Shown here: piece after piece, positions 21,707 to 47,019 of the stretch
Layout of the letters: each line of letters starts with the position of its first letter
How positions within the stretch are numbered: position 1 is the first letter of the stretch
From: Phycisphaerales bacterium
GTDB taxonomy: Bacteria > Planctomycetota > Phycisphaerae > Sedimentisphaerales > Anaerobacaceae
NCBI GenBank assembly: GCA_003141315.1
Contig: PLLP01000012.1
Coordinates: 1-60,744, forward strand
Direction of reading: 5' to 3'
Length of the DNA stretch: 60,744 nt
Position numbers and translations under genes: made by a program
Notes under the pieces: generated by a model
What the model was told of the DNA's origin: nothing
Seen by the model: the letters and a program-made list of their open reading frames with translations, nothing else
Databases searched by the model: none

Positions 21707-23017
21707 TCAATTTATTTTTTTTAGAATTACAGCGGCTGTTTGTCCGCCGAAAGTATAGCCGCAAATAAGAACATAATTAATATTTTTCTTTTGAGGCTGC
21801 ATAGTTATATTCAGATTGCAGCCCGAAGCTTTTTTGTCGCAATTTTTCGCAGCCGGTATTACGCCGTCGGTAATAGCCATGCAGGCGGCGATGCAATCGA
21901 GTCCGCCCGCCGCTGCGCCGTTATTACTCAGCATACTCTTTGTCGGCCAGACAGGGATATTTTTAACAGCAGTTCCGAGGGCGGCCTCAATTCCTTTTGC
22001 CTCCGCCAAATCATCAGCCGCTATGCCGAGGCCGTGCGGGATAATCAAATCAAGCTGCTGCGGCCCTATACCCGCTTCTGCCAGGGCTTTCTGAATTGCT
22101 ACGGTTATTCCTTTGCCGTCGGGTTCGAGGCATTGGTAAGCAGAATTAAGATTGCTGGATTGGCCTGTGCCGGCGAGTTCAGCGTAGATTCTTGTGCCTC
22201 TTTTACGTGCGGATTCCGGACTTTCGAGGACGACAATACCGGCGGCCTCGCCGAAGACTGAGCCTTTCGCATTCGAATCAAAAGGCCTGCAGGCCTTCTC
22301 GGGATTGTCAGCGTATTCCGTTGTCGCTCTTTTGAGAAGGCACTGGCGGATTAGGCACATCGGGTTGACTTTTACATCCGTTCCGCCCGCCAGAACAATA
22401 TCGCACTTGCCTCGCGTTATTGTAAGGGCGGCCTCGCTTATCGCCAGGTGCGATGACACCTCTGCACAGGTGATGGAGTTGCCGGGCCCCTGTATGTCGT
22501 GAATTATACTTATATGACAGGACGGCATATTCGGCAAATATTTCAGAAGCCACAAAGGCGGCACCAGCTCCAGGCCTTCTTTGCCCCATTTGCGGATGTC
22601 GAACCGGTTTCCGGTTTTGCTTGCGGATGCCGACGGCGCCAATTCCACGAGGTCGCAGCTTATCATACCAGCCCCGACATTCAGGCCGACTCTTGTCGGG
22701 TTTATATTTATTTTCGTGGGGTCGATTGCCTTTGTAATAAGTCCGCTGGAAATAAAAGCCTCATAAGCCGCCCCGACCGCCAGCTCGATATCGCGGGACA
22801 TAATCTTGACATATTTGCGGTAAGTTTTCGGGATGAATTTAGTGACGTTAAAATCTGCGACTTGGCCTGCGATTTTGCAGGGAAAACCAGCTGGGTCGAA
22901 TGCGGTAATCGGGACGATGCCGCAGCGGCCTTCGCAAAGTCCCTGCCACATACTGCTTACGTTTTGTCCGAGGCAGCTTACAGCGCCGAAACCGGTTATT
23001 ACAGGTTTGTCGCTCAT
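21707..23017 (-). CDS. Divergent beta-ketoacyl synthase (possible chain-length factor)
   Basis: A 436-residue KS-fold protein. The nucleophile Cys is kept (SITCAEVSSHLAI) and so is the first His (IIPHGLGIAADD), but the second catalytic His of the KSxxGHxxGAAG motif is replaced: the segment reads KSMLSNNGAAAGGLD, placing Asn where His is expected. It ends with GYTFGGQTAAVILKK. Losing this His should impair malonyl decarboxylation, so it may act as a partner subunit to the intact KS next door, as chain-length factors do; those usually lose the Cys instead. Its ATG overlaps the stop of the upstream dehydratase gene by four bases. Confidence 0.82.
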   Translation of the reverse strand: MSDKPVITGFGAVSCLGQNVSSMWQGLCEGRCGIVPITAFDPAGFPCKIAGQVADFNVTKFIPKTYRKYVKIMSRDIELAVGAAYEAFISSGLITKAIDPTKININPTRVGLNVGAGMISCDLVELAPSASASKTGNRFDIRKWGKEGLELVPPLWLLKYLPNMPSCHISIIHDIQGPGNSITCAEVSSHLAISEAALTITRGKCDIVLAGGTDVKVNPMCLIRQCLLKRATTEYADNPEKACRPFDSNAKGSVFGEAAGIVVLESPESARKRGTRIYAELAGTGQSSNLNSAYQCLEPDGKGITVAIQKALAEAGIGPQQLDLIIPHGLGIAADDLAEAKGIEAALGTAVKNIPVWPTKSMLSNNGAAAGGLDCIAACMAITDGVIPAAKNCDKKASGCNLNITMQPQKKNINYVLICGYTFGGQTAAVILKKIN

Positions 23018-23541
23018 TTAGTTTTGTTCTCCATGCCGATGCCGCGAATGAGCATTTTGAACGTGTCGGTGAAAACGAAATTTTCCTCCGGGAATTCCTT
23101 GCCCGCGATGTTCTTGTCGATATGGCTGAACATTAAATCAATCTCGGCGATGAGTTTTTCGTCCTGCGGTGAGCCTGCTTGCCCTGAGCTTGTCGAAGGG
23201 GTCGAACCTCCGCAGGTGATTTTGCCGCAGGTACTCGCAGCTTCAGCGGTGATGGATTCGATAGTTGCTTCAAGCCGCAGGGTGTCGCCGGGTTTTACGA
23301 AATCGAAAAAGACCGCCTTTTTTATTTTGGCGAGGATAACCTTTTCCTCGAAGTTTCTGGCCTGACCCACGAGGATGCCCGCCGTCTGTGCCATAGCCTC
23401 AATGCAGAGGCTCTCTGGCATAACCGGAAAACCGGGAAAGTGGTCGTGCAGATGCTCCTCGGCAAGCGTGACGTTTTTAACCGATACCGCCCGTTTGCCG
23501 CTTTCGAATTCAACGAATTTATCTATCCATATCCATCGCAT
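23014..23541 (-). CDS. FabZ-like 3-hydroxyacyl-ACP dehydratase (first copy)
   Basis: A 175-residue hotdog-fold protein. The catalytic His is in HDHFPGFPVMP and the Glu in SLCIEAMAQTAG, as in FabZ. It should dehydrate 3-hydroxyacyl-ACP in the same pathway as the adjacent ketosynthases and ACP. The 42-bp repeat-derived segment (23173-23214) encodes STPSTSSGQAGSP, an in-frame insertion near residue 115. The longer frame beginning at 23580 adds 13 residues from repeat-like DNA, so the ATG at 23541 (MRWIWIDKF) is preferred. The stop overlaps the next gene's start. Confidence 0.85.
   Translation of the reverse strand: MRWIWIDKFVEFESGKRAVSVKNVTLAEEHLHDHFPGFPVMPESLCIEAMAQTAGILVGQARNFEEKVILAKIKKAVFFDFVKPGDTLRLEATIESITAEAASTCGKITCGGSTPSTSSGQAGSPQDEKLIAEIDLMFSHIDKNIAGKEFPEENFVFTDTFKMLIRGIGMENKTK
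23173..23214 (-). repeat. In-gene dispersed repeat (TTCGACAAGCTCAGGGCAAGC type)
   Basis: This segment inside the FabZ-like gene is of the kind that yields TSSGQAG or PELVEG peptides in many environmental bacterial genomes. Its part GGTTCGACCCCTTCGACA (minus strand) is identical to 11120-11137 on the plus strand. Confidence 0.7.
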
Positions 23542-23576
23542 TTTTAAGCCACTGGGACGCAGAGAAAAAATTTCAA

Positions 23577-23637
23577 CCACAGATTAACGCAGATTTTCAC
23601 AGATTTTTTTCTTCAGTGAAATCTGTGCAATCTGTGG
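23577..23637. repeat. CCACAGATTAACGCAGATT-type palindromic repeat
   Basis: An imperfect inverted repeat between the ACP and first dehydratase genes: CCACAGATT at one end and AATCTGTGG at the other, with internal CACAGATTT/AAATCTGTG arms. Related words occur at 26.4, 29.0, 43.8, 46.6 and 47.1 kb. Transcribed, it would form a long hairpin inside the operon message. Confidence 0.75.
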
Positions 23638-24070: not shown

Positions 24071-24101
24071 CCTATACCCTATTCCCTATCCCCTAAACCC
24101 T
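24071..24101 (-). repeat. CCCTA-word array at the 3' end of the second dehydratase gene
   Basis: The plus strand reads as four to five degenerate CCCTATT/CCCTAAA words. The TAG stop of the downstream-most dehydratase frame (24093-24095) lies within the array, so the repeat supplies the end of that gene. Confidence 0.55.
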
Positions 24102-24563
24102 ATTTAACAATTTCCATCTTTGTTTCATAGCTTCGATTATCTGGCCATCGACGGCGGACATCGATGGGTCGCGGTCTGCGAGGTTGAAATGCCGCAGGCC
24201 GAACTTCGCCTCGACAATCGTCTGGCCTGCCGATACGCCGACGCCAGTAAAACTGCTTATGTTTTCTTCGATAGTCTTTGCCTCGACGGCGTATTCAATT
24301 TGTCCGCCGGGAGCGAGAAAACTTTTGTATTTAACGTTTCTGGCCTCGGCGAGCAAAATCATACTGTGGGCAAAATTCTCTTTTAATCTTACTAACCAGC
24401 CTGCCGATTCGATAAGCCCTTCGAGCAGCAGCACGCCGGGCAGCACAGGAAATGCAGGGAAATGGTCGGCTAAATATTCTTCCGACAGTGAGACGTTTTT
24501 AATAGTCTTTATTCCAACGCCTGCGGTTATAGAAACGACCTTATCGATTAAAATAAACCTCAT
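24093..24563 (-). CDS. FabZ-like 3-hydroxyacyl-ACP dehydratase (second copy)
   Basis: A 156-residue hotdog protein related to FabZ. The catalytic His is in ADHFPAFPVLPG and the Glu in LLLEGLIESAGWLV. It differs clearly from the first copy, so the two may act on different chain lengths or intermediates, or form a heterodimer. It is the first gene of the minus-strand cluster (dehydratase, ACP, dehydratase, KS, KS). Its last two codons and stop fall in a CCCTA-type repeat, which may have replaced the original C-terminus. No ketoreductase or acyl ligase is in the window. Confidence 0.85.
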   Translation of the reverse strand: MRFILIDKVVSITAGVGIKTIKNVSLSEEYLADHFPAFPVLPGVLLLEGLIESAGWLVRLKENFAHSMILLAEARNVKYKSFLAPGGQIEYAVEAKTIEENISSFTGVGVSAGQTIVEAKFGLRHFNLADRDPSMSAVDGQIIEAMKQRWKLLNRV

Positions 24564-24836
24564 ATCGGCTGCATTTTAGTGAAATGCTCGACTTTTTCCA
24601 GCAAATTTTGTTTTTTTTCACCATTCGCCACAGGCGAACCTTTGGCGGACGAGCTCCGGCACGGAGAAAATACTTGTAATTGCGGCAGGTTTTTGTATTA
24701 TCACTGGGGATTAGTCCGCAAACGATAAACCGCAATTAGAATAAGATTAAAATAAAATTACAGACGTGCTGGTTGGTTCGAGGGTAAGCACTACAAAGCA
24801 AAAGGATGTTCCATCGGAAAATAAAATTAATACAAA
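24564..24836. other. Repeat-bearing intergenic region left of the phosphatase/lipid kinase pair
   Basis: This region has a TTCGCC-CACA-GGCGAA hairpin and a TTTGGCGGACGAGCTCCGGCAC repeat at about 24628-24665. A minus-strand frame of 64 codons crosses the repeat and shows no recognisable protein. A GGTTCGAGG word near 24777 recalls a tRNA T-arm, but no tRNA can be folded around it. Confidence 0.5.
24628..24665 (+). repeat. GGCGGACRAGCTCCGRCAC repeat, left copy
   Basis: The core GGCGGACGAGCTCCGGCAC matches, in the same orientation, GGCGGACAAGCTCCGACAC at 26353-26371. The two copies flank the phosphatase and lipid kinase genes. Confidence 0.75.
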
Positions 24837-25307
24837 ATGACGGATATATCCAAAGTGACCGATTATTTATACGTGGGCTCCAGAGTCGGGAAGGAACATG
24901 CCGATGAATTGAAGGTGCTCAATTTTAATCTGATTATTTCCATGATAGGGCAAATGCCGCCTGACAATATCTATACCCTTCCTCCCTTTAAAACCTTATG
25001 GATTAAAACTTATGATACATTTTTTACTCCCATCTCGGTCAAGAAACTGCTGGTAGGGGTTGAGGCAGCCTTGCCTATTATTCAAAACAAAGGCAAGGTA
25101 TTAGTATTTTGCATGCAAGGCAAACGTCGAAGCGTTGCTATGGCCGCCGCCATCCTTATCAGTATGGGACATACCAGCGAACAGGCCATCGACTTATTGA
25201 CCACTGCTCGTAAGGCAGCTGATCCAAGAAGGTGGTATATCCGAAGGCAAATCAAAGCCTTTGAAAAATATTGGCAGAAAAGAGAATTGATATGGCAAAG
25301 AAAATAA
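24837..25307 (+). CDS. Dual-specificity protein/lipid phosphatase
   Basis: A 156-residue phosphatase of the Cys-dependent DSP family. The P-loop CX5R is VFCMQGKRRSVAMAAA, with Cys followed five residues later by Arg and then Ser. The N-terminal SKVTDYLYVGSRVG is typical of DSPs. The Asp in KTYDTFF is a candidate general acid. It overlaps the lipid kinase gene by 16 nt, so the two are translationally coupled; this makes a phospholipid phosphatase (PTPMT1-like) role plausible, though a protein substrate cannot be excluded. The gene is on the opposite strand to its left neighbours. Confidence 0.85.
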   Translation: MTDISKVTDYLYVGSRVGKEHADELKVLNFNLIISMIGQMPPDNIYTLPPFKTLWIKTYDTFFTPISVKKLLVGVEAALPIIQNKGKVLVFCMQGKRRSVAMAAAILISMGHTSEQAIDLLTTARKAADPRRWYIRRQIKAFEKYWQKRELIWQRK

Positions 25308-26203
25308 AAAAAATTCGCATCATTATTAATCCCGCCTCCGGAAAAGAAGAAGCTATCTTACCTGTTATTAATACGTCCATGAAAGAAGCCGGCATTAAGT
25401 GGGAAGCATCAATTACCCACCAGGCGGGCGATGCTATCCAGTTTGCGAAGGCTGCCGCCAAAGAAGAAATCGATGCCCTCGCTGTTTACGGTGGCGACGG
25501 CACACTCATGGAAGCAGCCAGCGGCCTGATTGGCTCAGAGATGCCTTTGGTTATTTTACCGGGAGGATCGGCGAATGTCATGGCCACTGAACTTGGCATA
25601 CCCACCGACCTTAAAGAAGCCTGTATGCTTCTGAGCCACGGCCCGATAGAGATAAAAACCATTGATGTGGGGCAGTTCGATAAGCGTTATTTTATTATAG
25701 GAATAAGCCTTGGTTTTGCGGCAGACATCGTCAAAGGCGCCGATCGCGAGAGCAAAAATAAGATGGGCATCTTCGCCTATTTTCTTTCAGCGGCCGCGGC
25801 ATTAAAGAAAACTAAAAAAGTGATATACCATCTGGTGATCGATGGACAAAAGCACGAAGTTCAAGGTTTAACATGTATCATTGCTAATACAGGAAATATC
25901 GGGTTTAGTACCATATCTTTCGATAAGCATATAGATGTCAGCGATGGGTTCCTGGATGTTATTGTCGTGCGAAAAGCGAATCTCAGTCTGTTTAAGCTTA
26001 TGGTTGTCACCTGGCTTAAACGGGAACGTCCGAACAATTTGGAATTAGTGGGGCACTGGCAAGGCAAAGATATCAGCGTTTCCTCAAGCCCCAAACAAAC
26101 GGTTCAATGTGATGGCGAGGTATTAGAAAAAATTCCTCTTCATATCAAGATCATTCCAGGGGCTATCAAGGTTTTGGTTCCTAAAAAAATGGAGAAAGGT
26201 TGA
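25292..26203 (+). CDS. Diacylglycerol/sphingosine kinase family lipid kinase (YegS-like)
   Basis: A 303-residue enzyme of the DAGK catalytic superfamily that phosphorylates a lipid alcohol with ATP. The ATP site is IRIIINPASGKEEA near residue 10 and AVYGGDGTLMEAASGL near 65, followed by VILPGGSANVMATELGIP, then the second domain with ISLGFAADIVKGADRESKNK and QCDGEVLEKIPLHIKIIPG. Length is typical for YegS-like proteins. The ATG at 25292 is preferred to an upstream TTG because the protein fold starts there; it overlaps the phosphatase gene. Specific lipid substrate is unknown. Confidence 0.9.
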   Translation: MAKKIKKIRIIINPASGKEEAILPVINTSMKEAGIKWEASITHQAGDAIQFAKAAAKEEIDALAVYGGDGTLMEAASGLIGSEMPLVILPGGSANVMATELGIPTDLKEACMLLSHGPIEIKTIDVGQFDKRYFIIGISLGFAADIVKGADRESKNKMGIFAYFLSAAAALKKTKKVIYHLVIDGQKHEVQGLTCIIANTGNIGFSTISFDKHIDVSDGFLDVIVVRKANLSLFKLMVVTWLKRERPNNLELVGHWQGKDISVSSSPKQTVQCDGEVLEKIPLHIKIIPGAIKVLVPKKMEKG

Positions 26204-26340
26204 TTAGCTCTTCAAATTCCTTCGAGGTTTCCTGCAGCTTTGCCAGTTCCGGAGTGCGAGCCACCGGAATATCACCTGCCTCCTGCTTGTCGAGAATATC
26301 CATCACGAAATGAATCGTAAGCTGATTAATAACCACAAAG

Positions 26341-26375
26341 CCATCCGCCTTCGGCGGACAAGCTCCGACACAAAG
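26341..26375 (+). repeat. GGCGGACRAGCTCCGRCAC repeat, right copy
   Basis: TCCGCCTTCGGCGGA forms a perfect palindrome and is followed by CAAGCTCCGACAC. It is a direct repeat of the copy at 24628-24665. Confidence 0.75.
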
Positions 26376-26383
26376 TTTTTTAA

Positions 26384-26402
26384 CCACGGATTAACGCAGA
26401 TT
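26384..26402 (+). repeat. CCACGGATTAACGCAGATT repeat copy
   Basis: It differs by one base from the start of the 23577-23637 element. It lies directly upstream of the helicase-nuclease promoter. Confidence 0.75.
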
Positions 26403-26418
26403 AAAAGAGTAAAAAAGA

Positions 26419-26448
26419 TTGTCTTCTTTCGTTATTTAACGATATAAT
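26419..26448 (+). promoter_or_regulatory. Promoter of the helicase-nuclease gene
   Basis: TTGTCT (26419-26424), an 18-base spacer and a perfect TATAAT (26443-26448) lie 43 bases before the ATG. The gene therefore appears to be transcribed alone. Confidence 0.65.
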
Positions 26449-26490
26449 ATTTCTCTAAGGCCGAAAGAAACGGCTATTGAAAGATAAATT

Positions 26491-29019
26491 ATGGTTGATT
26501 TTAGAAAACACGTTAGCAAAAAACGGGATATAGATTTCACAAACTTGGTCTCGCTTTTTGATTCACTGGATAGGCAAACTTCTCATATTGAGTTGAGAAC
26601 TGTTCAGCAAGATGCCCTTCGGATTTTATCTGAACGAAGATTGGAACGAGACCTTATTCTTAAAATAAGCACTGGTACAGGTAAAACCGCGGTAGGATTG
26701 CTGTATTTGTGGTCCTTCATGGAAGAAAAACATCTGCCTGTAGTGTATCTGTGTCCAACTACACAACTTTGTGAACAAGTCCGTGCAGAAGCTGAGAAGT
26801 TAGGTTTGAAGTCGGTTATATATCCCGCCAACCAACCTCATCCTGACGTGGAAGGTATCCGCGGGAAAGCAATTATCATTTGCACTTACGATAAATTATT
26901 CAATGCAAAAACAACTTTTGATAGATCTGATGTTATGCTTCGTCCTTACGCTATTGTACTTGATGATGCTCATGCAGGTGTCGAAGAAATCCGGAACTGT
27001 TTCACTCTCCATATACTCAATAGCAGCGTACGCGAACAACTTGTTAAAGTACTTGATGGTCCTTGTGCCGAATATAAACTATCAATATGGAATGACATTA
27101 AGAACGAAGATCCAAACCAGCTCATGGAGATCCCTTACTGGATTTGGAAACCTCTATTACCACAAATTGAACAGATTGTCGGTAGTCAGGCCAATGATGA
27201 TAAGCTACAATTTATAATACCGCATATTCGGGATATTTTACGACGATGCCGATGTGTGGTCTCAGGCGCAGCAGTTGAGATGATCCCCGATATATTGCCT
27301 GTTCACAAGAGTCCCGCATACGATAAGGCAAAGCATCGGCTCTTCATGTCTGCCACACTGGCTGATGATTCTGTATTGGTTAGAGAACTTGGCTGTGACA
27401 TCTCAGCCGCCGAAAATCCTGTAACGCCTGCTAATGATAGAGGGATGGGAGAACGCATGGTACTGGCTCCTTCGTTAGTGGATAGCACGCTGGATCGTAA
27501 GTGGGTAATGTCTTTGTGTGGCAGCCTATCGAAGAAACTCAATGTTGTCGTCCTGTCTCCAAGTGAGCCAAAAGCTCGTGAATGGGAAAGCTTTGGTGCC
27601 CAAATTTGTTTAGGTAACGATGTTAAAAAAGCAGTGGAGGGTTTGAAAGATACATCCGGTACACCTTGCTTTGTAGTTTTTGCGCAGCGATATGATGGCA
27701 TTGATCTTCCTGATAAGTCATGTAGAGTTCTCGTTATAGATGGCATGCCTCTCGGTGAGGGAATCCTAGACCGGCTTGACAGCAGCACCAGTGGATTCGC
27801 AGGAGGCACACGCAACAGATTGATTTATCGCATAGAACAGGGCATGGGAAGGGCTGTGCGCTCGCATGCCGATTACGCTGTCATTTTACTTGCAGGTAAT
27901 GAACTTGCTCACTTTATCGCAAAGCATGATGTGTTGTCAGCAATGAATCCGGATACTCGGGCTCAGCTAGAATTAGCAATAGACCTCTCAAAAATGGCGG
28001 TGGAAGATGTTGGGGGTGATCCTGAGACAGCGGTGATAGATATGATAAAGAAGTGTTTGAAAAGAGATGATGGATGGAAGCAATACTACAATGAGACGGT
28101 AAGAAAAAGTTCAATAACCGCATCCGGAACAACAGACCTTAATCGTCTTATGCTGGCGAATGCTGAAAGATGTGCGTTTGAATCCGCGATAAGTAATGAT
28201 CTGCACGGTGCAGTTAAACTCCTACAGGATGCGATTGGCAAATATGTCTCTGATGATCCAGCCACTAAGGGCTGGTATTTGCAGAGAGTTGCGAATTACC
28301 TATATGATATTGATTCTGGACAAGCATTAGAAGCTCAAAGGGCTGCTTACAGAGATAACAAATCGATGTATTGTCCACCGGGTGGTATTATCAAGCGACC
28401 TTCAAAAGTTGAAGAATCAAGTGTTCAAACTGTCATCAGTGAATGGTACCGCCAGTTCGAAAACCCTAATGGTGCAATTGCTAAAATTCAAGACCTTAAA
28501 GCACAGTTGTCCTTTGAAATGTCTCATTCGGTTGTTGAACAAGCCTTGTGCGACCTTGCTCCCCTTTTAGGGGCACAAGGCTCAAGACCAGGGGAAGAGT
28601 ATGATGGGGCGGGGCCAGACGATCTATGGCTTTGGCCGGACATGTCCTTAGTAATTGAGGCCAAAAACGAAAATCAGAATTCTCTACACAAAAAAGATGC
28701 AAGCCAGTTGCTTTCCAGCATACAATGGTTCAAAACAAATTTTGCCACACGTAGGGAACCAATACCAATTATTGTGGCTAAAGTTACCGTTTGTGATTCG
28801 GATGCATATTTTCCTGATAATATGAGAGTGATTACACCGACTACAATGCATAAGCTACTTGAAATGGTTGAGCAATTCTATCATAAGATGATTGCTGAAC
28901 CATTACTATGTTCAAGTGCGAAAAGCATCTTGAAACTACAACAAAATTTTTTGCTTTTGCCCGAACAGTTTTGTGGGAACTTTACAGAGAAACCGCATAA
29001 ATCTAAAAATACTAAGTAA
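26491..29019 (+). CDS. SF2 helicase fused to a PD-(D/E)XK-like nuclease domain (defence candidate)
   Basis: An 842-residue protein. Residues about 35-450 are a superfamily 2 helicase: Walker A STGTGKTA (60-67), CPTTQLCEQV, Walker B/DEAH variant LDDAHAG (about 157), SATL, and a DinG/XPD-like motif VI EQGMGRAVRSHADYAVIL (about 447). Residues about 540-680 are helical and unassigned. Residues about 690-790 look like a restriction-type nuclease: GPDD (about 708), then PDMSLVIEAKNE with Glu723 and Lys725. No Fe-S cluster Cys set is evident. It stands alone on its own promoter, with more AT-rich codons than its neighbours and repeats on both sides, so recent acquisition and anti-phage or anti-plasmid function are plausible. 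Exact family is not recognised. Confidence 0.75.
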   Translation: MVDFRKHVSKKRDIDFTNLVSLFDSLDRQTSHIELRTVQQDALRILSERRLERDLILKISTGTGKTAVGLLYLWSFMEEKHLPVVYLCPTTQLCEQVRAEAEKLGLKSVIYPANQPHPDVEGIRGKAIIICTYDKLFNAKTTFDRSDVMLRPYAIVLDDAHAGVEEIRNCFTLHILNSSVREQLVKVLDGPCAEYKLSIWNDIKNEDPNQLMEIPYWIWKPLLPQIEQIVGSQANDDKLQFIIPHIRDILRRCRCVVSGAAVEMIPDILPVHKSPAYDKAKHRLFMSATLADDSVLVRELGCDISAAENPVTPANDRGMGERMVLAPSLVDSTLDRKWVMSLCGSLSKKLNVVVLSPSEPKAREWESFGAQICLGNDVKKAVEGLKDTSGTPCFVVFAQRYDGIDLPDKSCRVLVIDGMPLGEGILDRLDSSTSGFAGGTRNRLIYRIEQGMGRAVRSHADYAVILLAGNELAHFIAKHDVLSAMNPDTRAQLELAIDLSKMAVEDVGGDPETAVIDMIKKCLKRDDGWKQYYNETVRKSSITASGTTDLNRLMLANAERCAFESAISNDLHGAVKLLQDAIGKYVSDDPATKGWYLQRVANYLYDIDSGQALEAQRAAYRDNKSMYCPPGGIIKRPSKVEESSVQTVISEWYRQFENPNGAIAKIQDLKAQLSFEMSHSVVEQALCDLAPLLGAQGSRPGEEYDGAGPDDLWLWPDMSLVIEAKNENQNSLHKKDASQLLSSIQWFKTNFATRREPIPIIVAKVTVCDSDAYFPDNMRVITPTTMHKLLEMVEQFYHKMIAEPLLCSSAKSILKLQQNFLLLPEQFCGNFTEKPHKSKNTK

Positions 29020-29032
29020 CTCAAAAATATCT

Positions 29033-29085
29033 GTTCTCTGTGGCTATTAACTTTGTGCCTTGGTGGCTTTGTGGTGAAGAAGGGG
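29033..29085 (+). repeat. CTCTGTGG / CTTTGTGCCTTGGTGG repeat copy
   Basis: The segment just after the helicase-nuclease stop carries TCTCTGTGGC and CTTTGTGCCTTGGTGGCTTT, words shared with the 46.6 and 47.1 kb elements. Together with 26384-26402 it brackets the helicase gene. Confidence 0.65.
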
Positions 29086-29124
29086 GTTTGCAATTTTGGG
29101 GGCGGTTTGGTATATTCTTATCTT

Positions 29125-29580
29125 ATGAAAATACGAACGGCGAAAATTTCGGATGCGGCGTTTATCTACGCACTGATAAATAACTACGCAGAGCAGGATT
29201 TGATGCTGTTTCGCTCAATGACGGACATCTACGAAAACCTGCGGTCGTTCCTTCTGGCGGAGACCGGCGGCAAGGTCGTCGGCTGCTGCTCATTACAGAT
29301 TATCTGGTCGGACCTGGCGGAGATAAAATCGCTCGCCGTCGATGAGTCTCATCAGGATAAAGGCGTTGGCAAGATGCTTGTTCAGCAATCGGTAAAGGAA
29401 GCCAGGAAACTCGGCATAAAAAAAGTCTTCGCACTTACGCTTGTGCCGGCCTTTTTCAAAAAATTGGGATTCAAAACGGTTGAAAAAGAAAAGCTGCCGA
29501 TGAAGGTCTGGACAGATTGTGCAAGGTGCACTAAGCAGGATAACTGCGACGAAATTGCGGTAATAAAGGTATTGAAATAA
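29125..29580 (+). CDS. GNAT N-acetyltransferase, short ArgA-like (N-acetylglutamate synthase candidate)
   Basis: A 151-residue GNAT enzyme. It has the acetyl-CoA binding segment LAVDESHQDKGVGKMLVQQS and the C-terminal pattern KVWTDCARCTKQDNCDEIAV, which is the mark of short ArgA-type N-acetylglutamate synthases that start arginine biosynthesis; argG is in the same window. The upstream 24 codons of the open frame come from repeat DNA, so the ATG at 29125 is chosen. No good ribosome site is visible. Another amino acid or small amine substrate is possible. Confidence 0.8.
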   Translation: MKIRTAKISDAAFIYALINNYAEQDLMLFRSMTDIYENLRSFLLAETGGKVVGCCSLQIIWSDLAEIKSLAVDESHQDKGVGKMLVQQSVKEARKLGIKKVFALTLVPAFFKKLGFKTVEKEKLPMKVWTDCARCTKQDNCDEIAVIKVLK

Positions 29581-43934: not shown

Positions 43935-44897
43935 ATGAATTCTAAAAAATGTTTTGTTTTAGCAGTAACGCTTTTGACCTTTTTAATTGGATTGAACGCT
44001 ACGCTATGGGGACAGGAACAAAAAGACCCAAATGATAAAATCAAGGCTTTAAAGGAAAAGATTGCAGTTGGAAAAAGTGTTTCTGACCCGAATTATAATG
44101 ATAAACTCAAGGCTTTGATTAAGCAGTTGGAAAGTGTTTATGACCCGAATTATATAGTGTATCACGGCAAGGAGAGAAGCCGACTATGGTTTGACAAGAT
44201 GTATGAGAGCTTCTGCGACAAAATTTTTTATGTCGAAGGTAAGTATTTCGATAAAAAAGCCTTTGTTTTTGTTGCTTCTGGGGGTAATTACTTACAAGGC
44301 TGGACATACCCAAACCAAGCACCCGTAGATAGAAATTACTTACTCTGCAAGGGTAATTACTTACGAGGTAACATAAGTTACCCCAAAGGTCAGATAGTTA
44401 CAGTTGAGTATAGTTTGGAAGTGGTACAAGTTCTTGAATCTGGCGAACTTTTGGTTCGCCAAGATAGAGAACCGGATGCACTTTTCCATTTAACCGGAAT
44501 GCGCGAAGGACAGTTGGTCGACAATCAATCTTTTTCATTTAAAGGTTATCTTATTTCTTTGGGAACTTTTGAGTACAAAACTGTCTTGGGAGCCAAAAGA
44601 ACTATCCCAAGTTTTAAGGCGTGTAACTTCCTTCCTTTGACCCGAGAACAATTTGCAGAAGCTCTCAATTACGACAAGAGCCGAAGTGGTATAGACATAG
44701 GTGAATATGAATATGAATTGATAATAGTAGAGTCTGGGACGCAGCTTAAATTCAGTGAAAACAAATATATTTTTCTGGAAAACAAAGACGATGGAAGTGT
44801 GATAATAAAAAAAGGTGACAGAATTATAAGGCGATTGGGTAAAGGAAAGTATTATTTCTACATAATCCAAAAACCAGTCCCCACCAAAGGCAGGTGA
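43935..44897 (+). CDS. Secreted protein of unknown function
   Basis: A 320-residue protein with a Sec signal peptide (MNSKKCFVLAVTLLTFLIG, cleavage probably near LWGQ). A Lys-rich helical stretch (about 25-65) precedes beta-rich sequence with KGQIVTVEYSLEVVQVLES and GYLISLGTFEYKTVLGAKRT, which recalls small beta-barrel or SH3-like domains in other planctomycete exported proteins. I do not recognise a family. AGAAGGTGATTT precedes the ATG. It is the first gene of a small AT-rich plus-strand set bounded by dispersed repeats. Confidence 0.7.
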   Translation: MNSKKCFVLAVTLLTFLIGLNATLWGQEQKDPNDKIKALKEKIAVGKSVSDPNYNDKLKALIKQLESVYDPNYIVYHGKERSRLWFDKMYESFCDKIFYVEGKYFDKKAFVFVASGGNYLQGWTYPNQAPVDRNYLLCKGNYLRGNISYPKGQIVTVEYSLEVVQVLESGELLVRQDREPDALFHLTGMREGQLVDNQSFSFKGYLISLGTFEYKTVLGAKRTIPSFKACNFLPLTREQFAEALNYDKSRSGIDIGEYEYELIIVESGTQLKFSENKYIFLENKDDGSVIIKKGDRIIRRLGKGKYYFYIIQKPVPTKGR

Positions 44898-44909
44898 ATT
44901 ATAAATTCT

Positions 44910-45185
44910 ATGTTCAAAAATGAAAAAAATAAATGTATTTTGATTACCGCGGTAATTATGGGTTTGTGTTTTCTTGGAGGTTATTTAATTGGCAGACACA
45001 GTCAAGATGTCCATGTGATAATTGGGGGGTTTGACGAAGTTATTTCACCAGAGGTACGGGCGAGGTTTGAGGGAAATGGTATTAATTCGCCGCACAATAT
45101 AGCTAAAAGGATGATAGAGGGTTGGCGCAAAGAACACCCCGGAAAAAAATTATTCTCCGATGTCAACGATGAAGGTGTAAAATGA
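44910..45185 (+). CDS. Small single-pass membrane protein of unknown function
   Basis: A 91-residue protein with one membrane helix near the N-terminus (CILITAVIMGLCFLGGYLIG) and a soluble tail containing RARFEGNGINSPHNIAKRMI. It follows the secreted protein by 12 nt and probably shares its transcript. No family is recognised. The ATG has only a weak upstream site. Confidence 0.55.
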   Translation: MFKNEKNKCILITAVIMGLCFLGGYLIGRHSQDVHVIIGGFDEVISPEVRARFEGNGINSPHNIAKRMIEGWRKEHPGKKLFSDVNDEGVK

Positions 45186-45242
45186 AAACCGACGGAATTA
45201 ACGGATGGGAGAATCATTTCCGTAAAAACGGCAAGGTGATTT

Positions 45243-46169
45243 ATGAAAGTTTTCAGAACGTCATACAAAGACGCGATTGAACCAGCAGAAGAAAATATGC
45301 GGAAGATGAATGAAAAAATTCAGAAAATTTTTTTCAGAACGAAACCATTGCTCTATGTACTTTCAAAAACCGTTTTGCCACATCAGCGTATCATAGGTGA
45401 CTGGGTTATCCGTGAAACCTACGAACTACTTGATGATAGCACATTACCCAAAGGTACAGTTTCGTATTCTATTTGGATTGAAACTGACGTTTCTTCGCCC
45501 AAGGAAATTCAGGCTAAAAAAGATACTGGTTTTAAGATAGCTGATGACTTGAATCGTGTCTGGACATATGTCCGCGGTCAACCAATAAACGCTGCTCGTT
45601 TGGGCTTAGTCTTTTGCGACGCACCTGCTGCTTGGACAACAAATATTAAAGAAGTAGAAAAGAAACTTGATGCTGAGATTAGTGGAATGACAGGCAATAT
45701 TATTATCCAACCAGGCCACTGTCTGATGTATGTCACGGAATTACCCCTTTCGAAAGCTCTTGATGTATACGAAAGTTATAAAACCGCCCCGGATTTCATT
45801 CGTGCGTTGATTGAACTTCATTATTCGGCGTTAACATCCAAGCGCTCGGAAGACCGGCTTATCTTCTTTGCAAAGGCGCTGGAAATGGTGCGTGGACTAT
45901 ACCCTGGTAAAAGCAACCAGCAAATACAGGACTCGCTCCCTGTGAACATCACAAGTAATTTACAACAATCGCTGCATTGGCTGTTTGGTATAGCAAATAA
46001 TCGGTTCGATGTCCGTCATGTAGTCCAGCAGAAGGGTACTCCTCCCGTCTTACACCCACGGATATCAATGCAAGAGCACCAATCATTCGAACATGATGCC
46101 GACTTGATCATTCGTACTGTGATTTGTCGGCAATTGGGACATGAACCCTTTTTGGTCAAATATGGATAA
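45243..46169 (+). CDS. Unknown protein with a HEPN-like C-terminal region
   Basis: A 308-residue soluble protein. The N-terminal 160 residues are mixed alpha/beta without a known motif. The C-terminal half is helical and reads like HEPN-type domains: LIFFAKALEMVRGLYPG, then LHWLFGIANNRFDVRHVVQQ with Arg254 and His259 in an RX4H arrangement, the catalytic signature of HEPN ribonucleases. If real it could be an RNA-cleaving defence or stress factor. AAGGTGATTT precedes the ATG. The link to HEPN is from motif reading only. Confidence 0.6.
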   Translation: MKVFRTSYKDAIEPAEENMRKMNEKIQKIFFRTKPLLYVLSKTVLPHQRIIGDWVIRETYELLDDSTLPKGTVSYSIWIETDVSSPKEIQAKKDTGFKIADDLNRVWTYVRGQPINAARLGLVFCDAPAAWTTNIKEVEKKLDAEISGMTGNIIIQPGHCLMYVTELPLSKALDVYESYKTAPDFIRALIELHYSALTSKRSEDRLIFFAKALEMVRGLYPGKSNQQIQDSLPVNITSNLQQSLHWLFGIANNRFDVRHVVQQKGTPPVLHPRISMQEHQSFEHDADLIIRTVICRQLGHEPFLVKYG

Positions 46170-46249
46170 CCAATTTAAACTGAACGAAATAGAGGGTTAG
46201 ACATTTTCTAAAATAAAAGCACTTATTCTGATTTATAAGGAGAGTGTGA

Positions 46250-46537
46250 ATGAGCGAAGAAAACAACATCAAAGAACTATTGGATGATATCAATCGCCAA
46301 TATCAGAACCGGAGTTGGTGGAGAAAATTCAAAGATTTTTGGTTGTATCCAAAGGGGCATAGACAAATAGCAATTAACGAGAGAAGTTTGACAGTCGATC
46401 AATATCTCCTACTTAGAATCCACCAGCAACAAATTCGAGATTCTGCGATAACGCATCGATTACTTATGCTTACTTTGCTGCTGGTTGCAATTGGGTTCAT
46501 TACGTTAATCATAATGCTATTGAGTAAAGACTGTTGA
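46250..46537 (+). CDS. Small tail-anchored membrane protein of unknown function
   Basis: A 95-residue protein with a charged, Trp-rich N-terminal half (QNRSWWRKFKDFWLYPKGHR) and one C-terminal membrane helix (LLMLTLLLVAIGFITLIIML). AAGGAGAGTG gives a strong ribosome site. It follows the HEPN-like gene by 80 nt. If that gene encodes a toxin-like effector, a small membrane partner would be consistent, but nothing proves it. Confidence 0.6.
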   Translation: MSEENNIKELLDDINRQYQNRSWWRKFKDFWLYPKGHRQIAINERSLTVDQYLLLRIHQQQIRDSAITHRLLMLTLLLVAIGFITLIIMLLSKDC

Positions 46538-46602
46538 GGAGCAATTAGAGGGTCAACACATTTCCTGCTAAATCCTTTTTAATTTTATTTTTAATTTTTA
46601 TT

Positions 46603-46625
46603 TTCTCTGTGGCCTCTGCGGTAAA
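46603..46625 (+). repeat. CTCTGTGGCC repeat copy
   Basis: TTCTCTGTGGCCTCTGCGG belongs to the same word family as 29033-29085. Confidence 0.55.
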
Positions 46626-46748
46626 TTTATTTATCGGTCTTGTGTATGCCGGTTTGGGTTTTCGGCAATTTTCCTGTCCTATAAACAAAAATGCTTTCCC
46701 AATACTGAAAACACAAAATCCCAATTTTACCGTCCGCATAACGAAGAT

Positions 46749-47019
46749 GAAACATCTCTTGTCAAGCTTGATATGTCAAATATCAAGCTTGAAACATCGT
46801 ATATCAAACATGAAATGCCGCATGTCAGACATGAAACTTCAAATATCAAGTGTGAAACGTCGCATATCAAGCTTGAAACACGAAGAAGCAAGTGTGAAAC
46901 ATCGTGTTTCATATATGAAATGCCTCGGAGCAAACATGAAACGTCGTGTTTCAAGTGTGAAAATCCTTTCCGCAAGCTTGAAACTTCGAATATCAAGCAT
47001 CAAAATCCTCTTATCAAAT
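46749..47019 (+). repeat. 21-bp degenerate tandem repeat (about 13 units)
   Basis: Units align as GAAACATCGTATATCAAGCT with variants; GAAA starts almost every unit and TCAAGCTT, TCAAGTGT or TCAAACAT ends it. The length of 21 keeps all frames open, giving heptad peptides such as HETSNIKCETSHIK or SSLKHRIS. Copies differ enough to suggest an old array or selection for a loose consensus. Confidence 0.85.

Follow-up and report, generated by a model that had tools for sequence, protein, structure and literature searches.

The gene at positions 26491-29019 of the window, by which we mean the whole 60,744-nucleotide stretch of planctomycete DNA analyzed here, is very probably (probability about 0.93) a horizontally acquired hna. 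The discovery of Hna in Sinorhizobium meliloti is said to have been reported by Sather et al. in 2023. Hna (helicase-nuclease abortive infection) is encoded by one gene, originally identified on S. meliloti pSymA, and protects against tailed phages by abortive infection; its mechanism was worked out in 2026 by Hooper et al. (PMC13381803). The initial annotation proposed a mobile defence system in which one gene combines helicase and nuclease. This reading is supported by homology to Hna, whose defence role is established by experiment, and by relatives in which the insertion site is empty. The annotation was right about the kind of system, helicase-nuclease immunity, but matched the gene to no named one, although the names Hna and PDC-S28 already exist; the gene is therefore not a new system. 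From the sequence of the window copy, we infer that it would act in anti-phage defence.

Table 1. Features of the hna locus in window coordinates.
Feature	Position	Strand	Remarks
Accessory insert, ~4.56 kb	24564..29124	.	Between FabA-like gene 24093-24563 and GNAT gene 29125-29580
Dispersed repeat, left, TTTAACCACGGATTAACGCAGATTAA	26379..26404	+	6 genome copies, 0 control matches; outside the hna unit
Possible sigma-70 promoter, TTGTCT-18-TATAAT	26419..26448	+	10/12 consensus; weak
hna homologue	26491..29019	+	842 aa, ATG start, ORF intact; HEL1 and HEL2 (SF2, DinG/XPD-like), helical linker, C-terminal PD-(D/E)XK nuclease
HEL1 loop and ATP-contact residues T30 S31 H32 I33 E34 L35 R36 ... Q39	26578..26607	+	From alignment; roles from PMC13381803
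Walker A STGTGKT, residues 60-66	26668..26688	+	From alignment; T61 G62 G64 K65 T66 invariant
Motif II DDAH, residues 158-161	26962..26973	+	From alignment
Motif VI EQGMGRAVR, residues 449-457, DinG/XPD-type	27835..27861	+	E449 Q450 G453 R454 R457 invariant
PD-(D/E)XK active site P709 D710 ... E723 x K725	28615..28665	+	Aligned with S. meliloti Hna P712/D713/E727/K729; predicted strands 711-714, 719-724
Dispersed repeat, right, CTTTGTGCCTTGGTGGCTTTGTGGT	29051..29075	+	Unrelated to left repeat; 6 genome copies, 0 control matches; outside the hna unit

The 842-residue product had been described as an SF2 helicase with a DinG/XPD-like motif VI, and this description holds: Pfam matches to DEAD (1.8e-14), ResIII (1.1e-12) and Helicase_C_2 (1.6e-8) mark the SF2 core, and EQGMGRAVR stands at residues 449-457. 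The C-terminal third has no Pfam match. A GPDD...VIEAKNE segment within it was proposed to be a restriction-type nuclease, in agreement with the alignment of P709, D710, E723 and K725 to the nuclease residues of Hna. The stretch of about 150 residues previously left unassigned (540-680) is predicted to be helical and lies inside the part of the protein that aligns with Hna.

The PADLOC candidate model PDC-S28 (PDLC04986) matches the window protein over residues 1-837 with a score of 830 bits (7e-250). Against the same model, S. meliloti Hna scores 1020 bits, taken as the 845-residue ORF of the pSymA locus (L053), a length that agrees with the published one (PMC13381803). PDC-S28 and Hna are thus one family, for which PDC-S28 is a provisional name, and the window protein shows no notable difference from it. 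In a phmmer search of the PDB, the sole strong match was likewise S. meliloti Hna (845 residues; entries 10UJ, 9YHN and 9YKJ; E = 3e-125 over residues 1-755), of which 10UJ shows the monomer and 9YKJ the dimer (PMC13381803). The two proteins are each encoded by a single gene, are 842 (window) and 845 residues long, follow the same domain order, and share the R36/Q39 ATP site and the PD...ExK nuclease residues. They differ in that identity is only ~32%, the window protein belongs to a separate, fully supported clade, and Walker A reads HTGQGKT in S. meliloti.

The overall fold agrees with this assignment. An AlphaFold2 model of the window protein, built from 12 homologues (pLDDT 82.1, pTM 0.73), superposes on the Hna monomer along its whole length (Z = 43.0, rmsd 3.4, 812 residues aligned, span 16-838). 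Its C terminus consists of helix 679-693, strands 696-698, 711-714 and 719-724, helix 734-750 and strand 758-762. In the model, the predicted order of elements is that of a PD-(D/E)XK nuclease, with P709, D710, E723 and K725 correctly placed.

DinG is the second-best structural family for the model (Z = 17.8, with a further DinG match at 16.9), and Hna itself has been described as ExoDinG-like (PMC13381803). Such a likeness of the SF2 core speaks for a housekeeping or repair helicase-exonuclease of the DinG/ExoDinG type, with no part in defence. Yet the similarity falls far short of the whole-length match to Hna, and with the NCBIfam model dinG_rel the window protein reaches 17.2 bits, below the cut-off of 547.7. 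Moreover, the family is present in only about 2-6% of the relatives and phylum genomes, and the gene sits in an insert that is missing from three relatives. We rejected a housekeeping DinG on the dinG_rel score and the fold comparison, and consider any reading of this kind extremely improbable. DinG, CasDinG and ExoDinG helicases do share the SF2 core and motif VI with the window protein, but their fold matches cover the helicase core only (Z = 16-18), and to our knowledge none carries a C-terminal PD-(D/E)XK domain like that of Hna. Hachiman (HamAB), mentioned in the initial annotation, also provides immunity by a helicase and a nuclease, but as two proteins, HamA and HamB, whereas the window hna is a single gene; its neighbours are phosphatase, DAGK and GNAT genes, so the two-gene unit is absent here. 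The HMM match of the window protein to HamB was insignificant (E = 0.056). Both Hachiman and Cas3 were rejected, their HMM scores being insignificant or confined to the helicase core.

S. meliloti Hna is a 3'-5' single-stranded DNA exonuclease that is restrained by ATP and released by phage SSB (PMC13381803). By homology, ATP bound in the helicase core of the window protein would hold it in a nuclease-poor resting state, and ATP binding would favour an autoinhibited homodimer formed via the HEL1 loop. Phage SSB, a replication protein of the phage, would then compete for the dimer interface, the freed nuclease would degrade single-stranded DNA 3' to 5', and cell death would precede phage release. 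Mutation of the S. meliloti protein abolishes nuclease activity in the case of K729A and lowers it in P712A/D713A/E727A, whereas in R36A/Q39A the loss of ATPase activity comes with increased cleavage (PMC13381803). Mutants of the ATP site in this protein are more toxic. R36, Q39, P709, D710, E723 and K725 are all conserved in the window protein by alignment, and this conservation leaves the catalytic part of the putative mechanism well supported in the window copy; the control part is less certain.

The dimer interface of S. meliloti Hna is made by T30/D31/P34 and its ATP site by R36/Q39 (PMC13381803). At the interface the window protein reads T30/S31/E34, keeping the threonine and replacing D31 and P34. 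In a tree of 28 distinct Hna sequences, with L072 left out and L094 standing outside it, the window protein forms a clade with L003, L052, L054, L055 and L058 (support 1.00). None of the six members retains D31 or P34, whereas all of them have R36 and Q39; L094 has the same loop, and the loop also varies in other branches. Because the whole window clade differs and other branches vary as well, the T30/D31/P34 loop is not clearly defining for Hna. With D31 and P34 missing across the clade, the off-switch or the phage trigger may differ in the window copy, and the S. meliloti autoinhibition model may not apply to it unchanged. The branch, together with the L094 loop, could be held off and triggered through an interface other than that of S. 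meliloti Hna, since the loop of the autoinhibited dimer and modelled SSB target lacks D31 and P34 branch-wide while all catalytic residues are kept. We put this forward tentatively and consider it rather unlikely, because other Hna branches vary here too and the same mechanism may tolerate loss of these residues.

Members of the family are sparsely distributed. At a permissive threshold, which admits some weak or partial matches, Hna was found in 12 of 198 relatives; at a strict threshold it was found in 8 of 392 genomes of the phylum, the window genome included, which is near the ~2% reported for bacteria (PMC13381803). Viral contigs gave no Hna match when scanned with a single protein and 12 more distant Hna loci when scanned with an alignment. 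One locus filed among phage records (L056) is a bacterial contig, with its hna among the genes of an integrative conjugative element. Another homologue (G283), in an open frame of 1457 residues, appeared to be a fusion, but the extension reads as a spurious GC-rich frame upstream of an ordinary MVDLRK start. In an illustrative scan made without a matched control set, other hna loci adjoined type I restriction-modification genes, a ThsB-like TIR protein and a mad2-like protein.

The insertion site itself points to acquisition. Besides hna, the insert holds a dual-specificity phosphatase gene and a diacylglycerol-kinase (DAGK) gene. In three relatives (L087, L088 and L089) the FabA-like and GNAT genes are directly adjacent, 137-226 bases apart, and the outer gene order is the same as far as the contigs read. 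The nearest hna copy (L002), from another genus, is 85% identical in protein and 88% in DNA, and the DNA common to it and the window runs from 26456 to 29002 only. There (3814-10511 of L002), hna lies downstream of an IetA/IetS pair (PADLOC 6.6e-98 and 3.9e-119) in a small defence island. The unusually AT-rich codons noted at the outset are confirmed by a GC3 of 0.364 for hna, against 0.543 ± 0.061 in 33 other window genes (z = -2.9). Taken with the empty site and the patchy distribution, this AT-rich codon usage is typical of a mobile gene.

The neighbouring DAGK-like gene (25283-26198) is 90% identical in DNA to a gene of a relative from another genus (G005) over the ORF alone. The G005 counterpart, 86% identical, stands in an otherwise unrelated setting, and G005 has no hna match; the DAGK-like gene seems to have moved on its own. 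Farther along the window, two AT-rich ORFs (43935-44897 and 45243-46169; GC3 0.36 and 0.40) without Pfam or PADLOC matches are followed by a palindromic repeat cluster at 46762-46960, and 43935-46960 is possibly another acquired segment.

The initial annotation had also taken dispersed repeats on both sides of the gene, and a near-consensus promoter of its own, as consistent with a mobile immunity gene. The repeats are genuine, but their use as evidence of mobility is not supported: the left and right ones differ, and the left type also occurs at 23571, inside the fatty-acid gene cluster, which means that no mobile unit is framed by them. As transposon ends they were rejected, being of two kinds with few copies each, found elsewhere, and with ends that do not match. 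A FabZ-like dehydratase (ORF 23014-23580, - strand) carries a 16-residue in-frame insertion around STPSTSSGQAGSPQD (23155-23225), which is missing from three relatives and contains the dispersed repeat GCYTGCCCTGAGCTTGTCGAAGGG; this repeat occurs nine times in the genome and has no match in the controls. The promoter site is likewise present, but promoter-like sites in the region number 8, compared with 6.5 ± 3.3 in shuffles, and as evidence it is therefore weak.

This lack of excess would speak for the hna homologue being an inactive passenger, intact in sequence but not expressed or not protective, as would the finding that none of the ten window genes scanned around hna gave a convincing PADLOC defence match. 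Against such a passenger stand the intact ORF, the full set of catalytic residues and the close similarity in sequence to the copy in the other genus, which is likewise intact, and we judge it very unlikely. A horizontally acquired hna remains the preferred reading.

The gene adds a planctomycete member to the Hna defence family. It also offers a clean case of transfer between genera in which a defence gene travelled almost by itself, as DNA similarity ends no more than tens of bases from either end of the ORF. Finally, a branch that is catalytically conserved and has a divergent control loop is a natural case in which to test whether all Hna proteins use the dimer/SSB switch.
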